64,000 nt of DNA from Flavihumibacter petaseus NBRC 106054 (GTDB taxonomy: Bacteria > Bacteroidota > Bacteroidia > Chitinophagales > Chitinophagaceae), in assembly GCF_000974785.1 (NCBI RefSeq), contig NZ_BBWV01000002.1, forward strand, positions 620,001 to 684,000, in the 5' to 3' direction. This document shows positions 51,224 to 60,193 of the stretch, one piece after another. The position numbers and the translations under genes were made by a program. How positions within the stretch are numbered: position 1 is the first letter of the stretch; every line of letters starts with the position of its first letter. The notes below the pieces were generated by a model. It searched no databases. It was not told where the DNA came from and saw only the letters and a list, made by a program, of their open reading frames with translations.

Positions 51224-51255
51224 TTTGTCGTGAAATCTTCGTTATGCTATCTTTG
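51224..51255 (+). promoter_or_regulatory. Promoter of the SRP RNA gene
   Basis: TTTG (51224-51227), a 20-nt spacer and TATCTTTG (51248-51255): a perfect match to the Bacteroidota promoter pattern. The RNA's paired 5' end begins about 3-5 nt after the box, which calibrates where transcription starts in this genome. Confidence 0.88.
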
Positions 51256-51257
51256 CG

Positions 51258-51356
51258 CCGGCAGGTCTTACACGGCCAGCTCCTACTGAACTCCCCCAGG
51301 GTCGGAAGACAGCAAGGGTAGGTGGTTGTAGCGGCGCGATGTAATAAGCCTGCCAT
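51258..51356 (+). ncRNA. ffs: Signal recognition particle RNA (4.5S-type)
   Basis: The RNA folds back on itself: GGCAGG (51260-51265) pairs with CCTGCC (51349-51354). At the tip, GGAA is closed by GTC/GAC, followed by the SRP internal loop CAGG facing AGCA. This equals the usual CAGG-UCC-GGAA-GGA-AGCA core with compensating changes in the three-pair stem. A T-rich run (51356-51362) ends it. Ffh binds this domain to target membrane and exported proteins. About 100 nt is the expected short bacterial form. The ends are placed by pairing, so they are good to a few bases. Confidence 0.88.
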
Positions 51357-51379
51357 TTTTTATTCCCCCTCTGCTTTCA

Positions 51380-53476: not shown

Positions 53477-53484
53477 CAAATATA
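53477..53484 (-). promoter_or_regulatory. -7 box of sua5 (near-leaderless)
   Basis: TATATTTG on the minus strand ends four bases before the ATG at 53472, so the mRNA would start at the start codon. No -33 TTTG is seen at the standard distance. Confidence 0.5.
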
Positions 53485-53499
53485 CTACGCATGAAAAAA

Positions 53500-53532
53500 T
53501 TTGGTGTTTTGATTTGCTTTGCTATATTTTTG
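53500..53532 (+). promoter_or_regulatory. Promoter of the histidine operon
   Basis: TTTG (53500-53503), 21-nt spacer, TATTTTTG (53525-53532): a full match to the Bacteroidota pattern. Transcription should begin near 53537, three or four bases before the leader ORF. Confidence 0.85.
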
Positions 53533-53540
53533 CGGGCGAT

Positions 53541-53591
53541 ATGAAAAGTTTCATGCAACATCACCATCATCATTTTTTGCCTTCGCGGTAA
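53541..53591 (+). CDS. hisL: his operon leader peptide (five consecutive His codons)
   Basis: A 16-codon ORF, MKSFMQHHHHHFLPSR, with His codons at 53559-53573 (CAT CAC CAT CAT CAT), followed by TAA at 53589-53591. It starts about four bases from the expected transcript start and lies 79 bases before hisG. It is too short for standard gene calling. The run of His codons just before the attenuator hairpin shows it is the sensor of charged tRNA-His. Confidence 0.93.
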   Translation: MKSFMQHHHHHFLPSR

Positions 53592-53660
53592 GCGGATGAT
53601 GTTTGCATGTACTAACAAAAACATTTGAGGGCTTACTACAGGTAAGCCCTTTTTTATTTT
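53587..53660 (+). promoter_or_regulatory. his attenuator: antiterminator strand plus intrinsic terminator
   Basis: The terminator stem is GGGCTTAC (53629-53636) pairing with GTAAGCCC (53642-53649), followed by TTTTTTATTTT. An upstream copy GGTAAGC (53587-53593), identical to 53641-53647, overlaps the leader stop codon and can pair with the terminator 5' arm instead. A ribosome at the stop codon covers that copy and the terminator forms. A ribosome stalled on the His codons leaves it free, the arm is sequestered, and transcription continues into hisG. Confidence 0.88.
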
Positions 53661-53670
53661 AAATCAGGCT

Positions 53671-54531
53671 ATGGACCAGAAGCTACGAATCGCCATTCAG
53701 AAAAGCGGCAGGTTGTATGACGACTCAGTAAAACTGTTGAAAGATTGCGGCATTGATGTGAAGAATGGAATAAACAAACTCCGTACGGAAGCAGAGAATT
53801 TTCCCCTGGAGATCTATTTTCTCCGCGACGATGATATTCCGCAATATGTGGAAGACGGCGTGGCCGATATCGGTATCGTAGGTGAAAATGTGGTATTTGA
53901 AAAGAACCGCAGGGTGACTGCTGTGGAACCGCTGGGTTTTGGAAAATGCCGCCTGAGTATTGCAGTGGGACGAAAGGACGACTATACCGGTCCGAAATAC
54001 CTGGAGGGTAAAAGGATCGCTACCAGTTACCCCGTACTCGTTCAGCGTTTCCTGGATGACAACGGCATCCGCGCAGAGATCCACGAGATCAGCGGGTCTG
54101 TGGAGATTGCACCCGGTATCGGGCTGGCAGACGCCATCGTTGACCTGGTGAGCAGTGGATCGACACTATTCATGAACGGCCTCAAGGAAGTGGATACCGT
54201 GCTCAAAAGCCAGGCAGTACTCATCCGCAACGGAAACCTCGACGAAGTAAAACTGGCCCTGCTCGAACGTTTGCTTTTCAGGATCAGGTCAGTGAAGAAA
54301 GCCAAGAACAATAAATACGTGCTGCTCAACGCACCGAACAATAACCTGGAAGCGATTATCCGGTTGTTACCCGGTATGAAAAGTCCCACCGTGCTGCCAC
54401 TTGCTGAGCCCGGATGGAGCAGTGTACACAGTGTGATCAGTGAAGACCAGTTCTGGGATATCATTGAACAACTGAAAGCGGCAGGTGCCCAGGGCATACT
54501 GGTAGTGCCGATTGAAAAAATGATCATTTAA
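53671..54531 (+). CDS. hisG: ATP phosphoribosyltransferase (long form)
   Basis: First enzyme of histidine synthesis, condensing ATP with PRPP. The 286-residue length and a C-terminal ACT-like region (from about 210, with LAEPGWSSVHSVISEDQFWDII) show the long, HisZ-independent form, which is usually feedback-inhibited by histidine. Catalytic-domain motifs are LRIAIQKSGRLYDDSVKLL, DDIPQYVEDGVADIGIVGENV and the PRPP site GLADAIVDLVSSGSTL. It lies behind the attenuator and 9 bp before hisD. Confidence 0.96.
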   Translation: MDQKLRIAIQKSGRLYDDSVKLLKDCGIDVKNGINKLRTEAENFPLEIYFLRDDDIPQYVEDGVADIGIVGENVVFEKNRRVTAVEPLGFGKCRLSIAVGRKDDYTGPKYLEGKRIATSYPVLVQRFLDDNGIRAEIHEISGSVEIAPGIGLADAIVDLVSSGSTLFMNGLKEVDTVLKSQAVLIRNGNLDEVKLALLERLLFRIRSVKKAKNNKYVLLNAPNNNLEAIIRLLPGMKSPTVLPLAEPGWSSVHSVISEDQFWDIIEQLKAAGAQGILVVPIEKMII

Positions 54532-56892: not shown

Positions 56893-58161
56893 ATGAAAAA
56901 GATCATCCTGATTTCCGCCTTCCTGGCAGGAGGAGCCGGGTTAACTGCAAAAGCTGGTGATACCACGAATGTTTACCATTCTCCCGCAAACATTAAAGTG
57001 CCGAAGGGGTTTGAAGCGACGATCATTGCTGATGAGCTCGGCAGGGCACGTCATATTGCTGCGGCACCCAATGGCGTGTTATTCATCAAACTGGAAAGAT
57101 TGAAGAACGGCAGGGGGATCCTTCGCCTGCAGGATGCCGACAACAATGGATCATATGAGAAGGTCACTTCCTTTGGCAATTACGGAGGAACGGGTATTGC
57201 AGTGAAGAACGGATACCTCTATGCCTCTTCCGATGACGCGGTCTACCGGTACCGGCTGAACGAAAATATGGAAGTTGCCGACACCGGAAAGCCTGAAGCG
57301 ATTGTTACCGGGTTACTGAATAAGCGGCAACACTCCGCCAAGGCCATCGCCCTGGACAACAACAATCATCTTTATGTCAATATCGGTGCGCCTTCCAACG
57401 CGTGCCAGGTAGCCGACCGTACCAAAGGTTCACCAGGCCAGGATCCCTGTCCCATCCTGGATTCTGCCGGTGGTATATGGCAGTTCAGCGCAGATCAGCC
57501 GGCACAGTCTTACAAAGAAGGCAAACGGTATGCAACAGGCCTTCGGAATGTGGTAGGACTCGACTGGAACAGCAATGTGAATGAACTCTTTGTAGTGCAG
57601 CACGGGAGAGATCAGCTGGCAACGCTGTATCCCGAATTGTACAATGACAAACAAAGTGCCGAACTGCCTGCTGAAGAACTGTTCATGGTAAAGGATGGTG
57701 CCAATTGCGGATGGCCATATTGCTACTATGACGGACAGCAACAGAAAAAGGTTCTCGCACCGGAATTTGGAGGCGACGGTAAAAAAGAAGCACGTTGTGC
57801 GGACATGGTACAGCCATTGGTTGCATTTCCCGCACACCTGGCGCCCAATGCCCTGTTGTTCTATACCGGTGATAAATTTCCGGCACGATACAGGAATGGT
57901 GCATTCATCGCTTTCCATGGGTCCTGGAACCGTGCGCCGCTCCCCCAGGAAGGATATTATGTAGTGTTTGTGCCCTTCGAGAAGGGCCAGCCAGCCGGAA
58001 AGTGGGAGGTATTTGCCGACGGATTTTCAGGACTTACTGAAGTGAAGTCCCCCAATGACGCAAAGCACCGTCCCTGCGGGTTGGCGCAGGCACCTGACGG
58101 ATCGTTGCTGGTGACAGATGATGTAAAAGGAACAGTATATAAAATCAGTTATAAAGGATAA
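56893..58161 (+). CDS. PQQ-dependent sugar dehydrogenase-like protein inside the his operon
   Basis: A 422-residue exported propeller protein (signal MKKIILISAFLAGGAGLTAKAG). Family features are PKGFEATIIADELGRARHIAAAPNG, SAKAIALDNNNHLYVNIG, YATGLRNVVGLDWNSNVNELFVVQHGRD, GANCGWPYCYYD and GSWNRAPLPQEGYYVVF. It resembles the sorbosone dehydrogenase group, with a Cys-rich loop (CQVADRTKGSPGQDPC). The gap to hisC is 23 bp and to the next gene 2 bp, with no visible promoter, so it should be part of the his transcript. Why a periplasmic sugar oxidase sits there is unknown. Confidence 0.88.
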   Translation: MKKIILISAFLAGGAGLTAKAGDTTNVYHSPANIKVPKGFEATIIADELGRARHIAAAPNGVLFIKLERLKNGRGILRLQDADNNGSYEKVTSFGNYGGTGIAVKNGYLYASSDDAVYRYRLNENMEVADTGKPEAIVTGLLNKRQHSAKAIALDNNNHLYVNIGAPSNACQVADRTKGSPGQDPCPILDSAGGIWQFSADQPAQSYKEGKRYATGLRNVVGLDWNSNVNELFVVQHGRDQLATLYPELYNDKQSAELPAEELFMVKDGANCGWPYCYYDGQQQKKVLAPEFGGDGKKEARCADMVQPLVAFPAHLAPNALLFYTGDKFPARYRNGAFIAFHGSWNRAPLPQEGYYVVFVPFEKGQPAGKWEVFADGFSGLTEVKSPNDAKHRPCGLAQAPDGSLLVTDDVKGTVYKISYKG

Positions 58162-58163
58162 GC

Positions 58164-58565
58164 ATGTATAAAATCATAGCAGGCGCTGCCGTACTCCTGG
58201 CCCTGGCTTTTACTGCCAGGCAGCCATTACCCAAAGGATCACTGGAAAGAGGAAAAAAAGTGTATGCCACCAACTGCCTCGCCTGTCACCAGGCCGACGG
58301 AAGCGGTGTACCCAACCTGAATCCGACATTGGCCAAAACGCCGCAGGTGACGGGAGACCGACAGAAGCTCATCAATATTATCCTCAAGGGGCTGGATGAG
58401 GAAATAGAGATTAATGGAGAATCCTTCAGCAATCCAATGCCTTCACAAGCGCACCTGAGCGACCAGGAGATCGCTGATGTGCTCACCTATGTGCGCAATA
58501 GTTTTGGCAATAAGGGCACTGCTGTAAGTGCAGCCATGGTAACTACCGAAAGAAAAAAAATGTAA
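58164..58565 (+). CDS. Exported c-type cytochrome
   Basis: A 133-residue monohaem cytochrome with an N-terminal signal (MYKIIAGAAVLLALAFTA), the haem motif CLACH (C38, C41, H42) and a likely Met ligand in SNPMPSQAHLSDQEI. It follows the dehydrogenase gene by two bases and is the obvious electron acceptor for it. It precedes hisB by nine bases. The C-terminus (VSAAMVTTERKKM) is an unusual basic tail. Confidence 0.9.
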   Translation: MYKIIAGAAVLLALAFTARQPLPKGSLERGKKVYATNCLACHQADGSGVPNLNPTLAKTPQVTGDRQKLINIILKGLDEEIEINGESFSNPMPSQAHLSDQEIADVLTYVRNSFGNKGTAVSAAMVTTERKKM

Positions 58566-60075: not shown

Positions 60076-60135
60076 ATGATTTTCAAACAACATAATCAGT
60101 GGTGGTGGCATACAAACTCTTCTGGGGTGCTGTAA
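60076..60135 (+). CDS. trpL: trp operon leader peptide (three consecutive Trp codons)
   Basis: A 19-codon ORF, MIFKQHNQWWWHTNSSGVL, with TGG TGG TGG at 60100-60108 and a TAA at 60133-60135. Three Trp in 19 residues is far above chance. It lies at the start of the transcript, 73 bases before trpE, followed by an intrinsic terminator. It should sense charged tRNA-Trp. Confidence 0.93.
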   Translation: MIFKQHNQWWWHTNSSGVL

Positions 60136-60193
60136 AGCCATTGCTGTTATTGTAACATATCAGAACCCCGGTGATCATCATCGGGGTTTTTCT
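60122..60193 (+). promoter_or_regulatory. trp attenuator: antiterminator strand plus intrinsic terminator
   Basis: The terminator pairs AACCCCGGTG (60164-60173) with CATCGGGGTT (60179-60188) followed by a T run (60187-60191, then CT). An upstream strand CTGGGGT (60122-60128), lying over the last leader codons, can pair with ACCCCGG (60165-60171) and block the terminator. A ribosome that reaches the stop codon masks this strand. A ribosome stalled on the Trp codons does not. The logic equals that of the his leader. Confidence 0.85.

Follow-up and report, generated by a model that had tools for sequence, protein, structure and literature searches.

The window analysed here, a stretch of 64,000 nucleotides from Flavihumibacter petaseus NBRC 106054 (its source genome is called the own genome below), carries a his locus on the plus strand, and the question it raises is whether the element lying between the divergent sua5 gene and hisG controls the genes downstream of it. 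Ribosome-mediated his attenuation is a textbook mechanism, and we consider it highly probable that this element works as a ribosome-mediated attenuator of his operon transcription and would respond to histidine, because a conserved His leader, predicted switch folds and model matches specific to hisG all point in that direction. A sequence-only reading had already placed a 16-codon His ORF, a promoter and a terminator between sua5 and hisG, with a five-His leader peptide before the latter; the coordinates were confirmed, the promoter being of the Bacteroidota type and the leader lying at 53541-53591. The features are the following.

53472-52510, divergent from hisG: sua5 (Pfam Sua5).
53500..53503, plus strand: TTTG, the -33 box of a Bacteroidota-type promoter, recognised by sequence.
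53525..53532, plus strand: -7 box TATTTTTG, an exact TAnnTTTG, which would place the transcript start near 53537.
53541..53591, plus strand: leader peptide ORF MKSFMQHHHHHFLPSR and its stop codon, 16 codons.
53547..53581, plus strand: strand 1, the 5′ half of the leader with the His codons and TTGCC (Leu-Pro codons), predicted to pair with 53587-53613 when no ribosome is present.
53559..53573, plus strand: five consecutive His codons, the putative regulatory codons.
53587..53593, plus strand: strand 2, GGTAAGC, the antiterminator arm, lying on the stop codon TAA (53589-53591) and copying the terminator 3′ arm.
53595..53609, plus strand: strand GATGATGTTTGCATG, predicted to pair back to the His codons and the adjoining leader codons.
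53598..53625, plus strand: antiterminator inner helix, in which 53598-53604 is predicted to pair with 53619-53625.
53627..53660, plus strand: intrinsic terminator, with an 11-bp stem GAGGGCTTACTACAGGTAAGCCCTT at 53627-53651, of which 53641-53651 is strand 4, and a U-rich tail after it.
53631..53637, plus strand: strand 3, GCTTACT, the partner of strand 2 (antiterminator) or of strand 4 (terminator).
53671..54531, plus strand: hisG, putatively the first regulated gene (Pfam HisG).

The leader stop codon stands 79 nt before hisG and the end of the terminator stem 19 nt before it. Downstream of hisG follow, in order, hisD, hisC, a GSDH-like gene, a cytochrome c gene and hisB, where the run ends (59720); their Pfam identities are HisD, an aminotransferase at the HisC position, GSDH-like, cytochrome c, and IGPD with HAD, which corresponds to HisB. 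The next Pfam identities are TrpE, TrpG and TrpD. The glucose/sorbosone-dehydrogenase-like and cytochrome c genes (56893-58565) are thus inserted between hisC and hisB, within the his run. Elsewhere in the window, a Bacteroidales-type small SRP RNA (Rfam RF04183, 100.3 bits) was found at 51252-51359.

The conservation of the element was followed in the best 80 of 374 hisG relatives found in named genomes, among which HisG identity across the leader set goes down to 74%; seven of the nine closest (84-88% identity) are labelled Flavihumibacter. One relative with only 45 nt of upstream sequence (L013) was excluded, and a leader ORF with a His run lies upstream of hisG in 78 of the remaining 79, so that the search for a His ORF and a repeat before hisG in relatives, a check that the sequence-only reading had proposed, came out strongly in its favour. 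The counter-example is L067, on a contig labelled Beijerinckiaceae, which has no leader upstream of hisG. In L071, which has a GTG start, the script chose the wrong ORF, and this relative was left out of the promoter, strand, codon and ribosome-model counts. The counts below therefore refer to 78 leaders (the window and 77 relatives, excluding L013, L067 and L071), to 76 leaders for the strand and ribosome models (without L016 and L020), or to an alignment of 75 leaders, from which L016, L020, L021 and L071 are absent.

Five of the 16 codons of the window leader are His codons, an enrichment in codons for the product of the operon. Typical leader peptides of the relatives are MKQFAHIHHHHFLPRG and MKISMHIHHHHHFLPNG, and at least four His are present in 71 of the 78 leaders, the leader of L055 having two. 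Codon usage for this residue over the 78 leaders is CAT 303 and CAC 72; the residue is constant and the codon variable. One could suppose that a T-box or a metabolite riboswitch controls hisG and that the His codons are incidental, given that a structured leader and a terminator precede a biosynthetic gene. However, His is retained through synonymous codon change, the last His stands at an almost constant distance from strand 2, and Rfam searches of the leader and of the loci of 20 relatives brought no family up to its gathering score, the best weak match at the leader being Phe_leader (22.8 of 55 bits). The T-box covariance model likewise gave no gathering-level match in the window and none up to E 5 in 53480-53700, and we regard control by such an element as most improbable.

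Another possibility is that the leader ORF serves mainly for reinitiation or translational coupling to hisG rather than for the control of transcription. A role in reinitiation has been suggested for leader genes near structural genes of several phyla, including Bacteroidetes (PMC4833913), but the proposed effect is reported to peak at around 10-14 nt in the same source, whereas the gap from the leader stop to hisG is 79 nt here and reaches 227 nt among the relatives. Moreover, an intrinsic terminator intervenes between leader and hisG in 78 of 79 rows (the window and 78 relatives), the one missed being L071 with its wrongly chosen ORF. A role mainly in reinitiation or coupling thus seems extremely unlikely, and attenuation of transcription remains the reading that we prefer.

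The strands on which attenuation would depend are also conserved. Strand 2 could be placed in 76 of the 78 leaders, as GGTAGGC in 51, GGTAAGC in 18 and other sequences in 7, the two leaders that do not fit the pattern being L016 and L020, and strand 3 starts with GCTTA in all 76. In the window, a second exact copy of GGTAAGC is found at 53641-53647, inside the terminator 3′ arm. The sequence-only reading had remarked on this exact copy; as a description of the window the remark stands, but as a general rule it does not, since strand 2 and its copy in strand 4 have identical letters in only 31 of the 76 leaders, the remainder differing mostly by A/G changes that preserve pairing. Its further claim that an antiterminator strand sits on the stop codon describes a real and conserved feature: of 76 leaders, 70 have the stop codon within strand 2 and in an identical register, and in the other six (L015, L028, L057, L074, L076 and L080), which still keep the element, strand 2 starts no earlier than the last base of the stop and no later than 1 nt beyond it. 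When the best partner of the terminator 5′ arm was sought, it fell between 18 nt before and 6 nt after the end of the stop codon in 72 of 78 leaders, compared with 23.0 expected from shuffled leaders.

The choice of stop codon is itself uneven. Among the 78 leaders, TAG is over-represented (TAG 52, TAA 23, TGA 3), while in 277 ORFs of at least 200 aa from the same loci the counts are TAA 183, TGA 54 and TAG 40; the sequences compared are related and hence not independent. A TAG stop forms a G-U pair with strand 3, TAA would form the better A-U pair at that position, and the excess may reflect the tuning of strand strength or of release at the stop.

In the 75-leader alignment, 99.6% of the cells of the terminator helix are paired and two-sided change is seen in five of its 10 pairs, with a covariation score of 62 cells of compensatory change that none of 500 shuffles reached. 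For the antiterminator, 97.8% of cells are paired, compared with 22-52% after sliding by 1-3 columns, and the inner helix TGTTTT/AAAACA is mostly kept. Its covariation is weak (two-sided change in two of eight pairs, equalled by 31 of 500 shuffles) because the core is almost invariant, and covariation was rejected as proof of the antiterminator core, which is too invariant for it to decide. In strand 1, the Leu-Pro codons, present in 61 of 78 leaders, carry a CTTRCC-like core in most of them, and this core is found in one reading frame in 61 leaders and in another in 7, the pattern being absent in 10. Since it is kept in two reading frames, it is conserved as RNA.

The predicted folds agree with a switch between these strands. 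Without a ribosome, the full leader of the window folds at -36.7 kcal/mol (z -5.3, with 1 of 200 shuffles as good) into a long hairpin, in which the 5′ half including the His codons pairs with 53587-53613, followed by the terminator. Taken only as far as strand 3, this ribosome-free leader gives a hairpin no better than shuffles (-20.6, z -0.8, 34 of 200). When the segment starts just ahead of strand 2 and ends with strand 3, the predicted fold is the antiterminator, at -14.2 kcal/mol (z -2.3). Over the 76 leaders, the median energies are -6.2 for a short hairpin of strands 1 and 2, -18.5 for the antiterminator and -17.3 for the terminator. A strand 1 that amounts to a mere short hairpin between the Leu-Pro codons and the stop was rejected for the window, where the fold pairs the 5′ half of the leader at length.

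We then placed a ribosome on these RNAs, with an assumed distance of 12 nt between the first base of the A-site codon and the front edge. With the A site on the first or the last His codon, the model leaves strand 2 free and predicts that the antiterminator precedes strand 4 in all 76 leaders. With the ribosome at the stop codon, strand 2 is covered and the prediction is the antiterminator in none and the terminator in all 76. The two-state switch read by ribosome position that had been proposed from the letters is thus borne out by the predicted folds. On the last His of the longest run, 52 of 76 leaders have the front edge exactly 4 nt before strand 2, and in none does the edge reach that strand; at the stop codon it has passed the beginning of strand 2 by 14 nt in 70 leaders and by at least 8 nt in all. 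Without a ribosome, the antiterminator is predicted in 33 of 76 leaders and the terminator as the final fold in 71, and the first of these counts indicates that super-attenuation is not uniform across the relatives.

When the whole RNA is left free to fold with a ribosome on the His codons, the terminator is still the better equilibrium fold in 64-66 of the 76 leaders. Such a preference could be taken to mean that the hairpin is a constitutive terminator and that the His ORF is a decaying remnant. Nevertheless, the His run, the near-fixed spacing and strand 2 are kept in 76 of 78 leaders, with HisG identity as low as 74%, and an exact TAnnTTTG within 60 nt upstream of hisG was found in none of the 78 relatives, so that there is no obvious second promoter there. 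We consider decay to be very unlikely. Since equilibrium favours the terminator despite a stalled ribosome, read-through in the attenuator that we propose would be a kinetic outcome, decided during transcription.

In such an attenuator, transcription would start about 4 nt upstream of the leader ATG, so that a ribosome would be able to load once the RNA emerges. A ribosome reaching the stop would have its footprint over strand 2 (GGTAAGC), strand 3 would then pair with strand 4, and RNA polymerase would terminate before hisG. When charged His-tRNA is short, the ribosome would stall on a His codon, with its front edge some 4 nt away from strand 2 if it stands on the last His and 16 nt away if on the first. 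Strand 2 would be left free to pair with strand 3, and the terminator would come too late to prevent the transcription of hisG. In the absence of a ribosome, the 5′ half of the leader would pair with strand 2 and the terminator would form again. The stop codon inside strand 2 would link ribosome release to the decision point, and basal read-through should stay low. The variant features are structural and conserved, and their functional meaning, like the stalling, the histidine response and the basal level, is one that we infer.

The start of the transcript deserves separate consideration. A sigma-70-type scan found no site at the leader promoter, and the Bacteroidota promoter type is outside the coverage of that scan. 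In the window, the -7 box ends 8 nt upstream of the ATG. Of the 78 leaders, 71 carry an exact TAnnTTTG no more than 40 nt from the ATG, 6 more match five of its six positions, and 1 matches three. From the last base of the box to the ATG, the median distance in the 71 leaders with an exact box is 8 nt, with 4 nt in six and 4-10 nt in 60, and TTTG occupies the -33 place, starting 18-29 nt before the -7 box, in 64 of them. An exact box ending 4-11 nt before the ATG is found in 61 of 78 leaders. In the 80 loci as a whole, counting both strands and with the leaders themselves included, 101 of 16,339 ATGs have such a box. In Flavobacterium psychrophilum, the -7 box is reported to lie at -12 to -5 relative to the start (PMC9723704), and from this position and the distance between box and ATG we infer that the 5′ UTR measures about 4 nt in the window, 0 nt in 6 of 78 leaders and 0-6 nt in 60. 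Because the promoter stands so close to the ATG, the leader looks near-leaderless, with a start site that would follow from the promoter position. For comparison, the median 5′ UTR in F. psychrophilum is given as 24, with 5.5% leaderless mRNAs (PMC9723704), and in Bacteroides thetaiotaomicron around 3.7% of 5′ UTRs are given as shorter than 10 nt (PMC7366714).

Leaderless attenuator leaders are reported elsewhere. The trpL leader of Sinorhizobium meliloti (PMC7298713) is one, ilvBNC of Corynebacterium glutamicum is treated as leaderless (PMC11857589), and mycobacterial polycysteine ORFs are described as leaderless attenuator leaders, all of them in other phyla and for other amino acids; in our case, the promoter position suggests a similar start. 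Closer to the present case in phylum and gene, F. psychrophilum is reported to have a structured 5′ element before hisG, known from transcripts and conserved in its family, for which no Rfam family was found, together with strong clues for leader-peptide attenuation before amino-acid operons (PMC9723704). As judged by titles and the opening lines of abstracts, the literature searched describes neither a his attenuator in Chitinophagaceae nor this stop-codon layout. A comparative study of 2004 had reportedly already listed candidate attenuators in Bacteroidetes/Chlorobi.

The enteric his attenuator (RF00514 His_leader) also has a leader peptide with a His run and an antiterminator/terminator switch before hisG, but its model scores 19.5 bits on the window leader, below the gathering score of 49. 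In the E. coli trp leader, the stop codon precedes strand II, whereas in the Flavihumibacter leader it lies within strand 2. The E. coli trp attenuator follows the same four-strand logic, in which a ribosome past the control codons blocks strand II, and release at the stop is reported to give 10-15% basal read-through (PMC1183508). In the enteric his system, an extra hairpin is reported to keep read-through low, in place of which the leader described here has its stop codon in strand 2, one of the two routes to low basal read-through set out by Elf and Ehrenberg (PMC1183508). The class of mechanism is thus already known, and what appears distinctive is the stop codon in the antiterminator strand, the putative near-leaderless start and a strand shared with trp and asd leaders.

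How far does this arrangement reach across the phylum? A covariance model built from the 75 leaders and run on 395 phylum genomes (E <= 0.001) matched 30 of them, among which are 12 of the own family's 14 listed genomes, and in 29 of the 30 matches hisG lies on the same strand within about 220 nt downstream. The exception, L105 (1498-1680), has a similar RNA frame (GGGGTAATC, then GGCTTACC..GGTAAGCC) with a leader, MMKINTEYKRNKRSYLLG, that contains no His and precedes a 417-aa aminotransferase-like ORF (named by eye); HisG was not found in its genome. Of 158 phylum genomes, 138 gave a HisG. The upstream DNA was examined for 90 of these, the 83 whose HisG reaches 45% identity being covered completely and the 55 below that level by 7. 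Under a loose criterion, a His-rich ORF precedes hisG in 75 of the 90 (75 of 83 and 0 of 7), some of them probably by chance. With a stricter one (an ATG-ORF in the last 300 nt before hisG with at least four His in eight residues), the count is 55 of 90, compared with 0.17% of 1,800 dinucleotide shuffles.

Outside the own family, a partner of the terminator arm lies near the stop (-18 to +6 nt) in 30 of 41 leaders with a terminator, with 9.7 expected from shuffled leaders. A first, slightly wider rule gave 33 of 45 including the own family, and 5 of 11 in group f17; the crude pairing score of that first version selects another pairing for the window itself. The strand sequences vary between lineages, so it is their place that is shared and not their letters. 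For instance, group f5 has the terminator CCCGTTTGAG and a strand 2, TCAAGCG, 16 to 6 nt before the end of the stop. In groups f19, f15 and f26 (L122, L125, L126, L178, L179, L124), no His-rich ORF was found before hisG under the loose criterion, and the attenuator may therefore be absent or replaced in some lineages.

A further variant is seen in group f24 (for example L157, L164, L182 and L190-L193), in which His-rich leaders lie upstream of hisG in all 19 cases. Twelve of the 19 start with GTG, 8 of these exactly 4 nt past an exact TAnnTTTG (a leaderless GTG), and these starts are therefore missed by the ATG-only controls, both in the shuffle and in the partner-strand counts. Between leader and hisG, no terminator was found in 17 of the 19, the best of the other two being -1.1 kcal/mol, and a looser stem rule picked up weak stems in G151 and G081 (-7.9 and -8.7). 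No conserved structure was found between leader and hisG in the 18 of 19 rows examined, and this gap contains 6-12% G and 21-29% C. The second step in this group is perhaps of the Rho type.

Similar leaders precede other amino-acid operons. In the window, the trpE leader MIFKQHNQWWWHTNSSGVL and a terminator (60076-60135 and 60163-60189) have the appearance of an attenuator, and the terminator 5′ arm can pair with CTGGGGT in the last codons of the leader. A WWW leader lies upstream of trpE in 27 of 30 loci of the family, with a partner strand near the stop in 24 of the 27 (7.0 expected). The -7 box of these trp leaders is mostly off-consensus, with CATATTTG in 10 of 27 and an exact box within 48 nt in 9. 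Before an asd-like gene (named by eye), L083 of the own genome (G000:C22:1229200-1229313, minus strand) has the leader MTMMKHTTKIKKQFPQQEGV, with Thr, Met, Lys and Ile codons, a terminator, and GGAAGGT in its last codons; this leader may sense several aspartate-family amino acids at once. Leaders with a Thr/Lys motif such as HTKRTKK were found in 22 of 30 asd loci examined (of 38 with the gene), and since they were picked for K, T, M and I content, that richness is not independent evidence, as the shared motif is. Their partner strand near the stop was found in 17 of 22 in the stricter run (6.6 expected) and in 22 of 22 in the first run. In L084 (1498-1650), likewise of the own genome, a prephenate dehydratase-like gene (named by eye) is preceded by a terminator and an ORF rich in Phe and Tyr (FGRFYFYFYFF).

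A strand close to the stop is thus common to the his, trp and asd leaders of the family. We propose tentatively, with slightly more doubt than belief, that in much of Bacteroidota his, trp, asd and perhaps pheA share one attenuator design, a short and often near-leaderless ORF whose last codons and stop would form the antiterminator arm. Ribosome release at the stop, and not a separate hairpin, would set basal expression, and His, Trp, Lys/Thr/Met/Ile or Phe/Tyr codons would be swapped freely on one scaffold. Group f24 would have lost the intrinsic terminator, keeping mostly GTG His ORFs that begin at the first base of the RNA and a Rho-like or other second step.

The ribosomes of this phylum are reported not to recognise Shine-Dalgarno sequences (PMC9976891), and the leader family provides a compact and well-conserved model of attenuation for a phylum with such ribosomes. 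The stop codon in strand 2 would be a natural case of the design considered by Elf and Ehrenberg (PMC1183508), and shifting the stop codon would put their theoretical claim to a direct test. A near-leaderless start would, in turn, bear on how Bacteroidota ribosomes initiate, and the recurrence of the arrangement before his, trp and asd would permit the systematic discovery of leader peptides.
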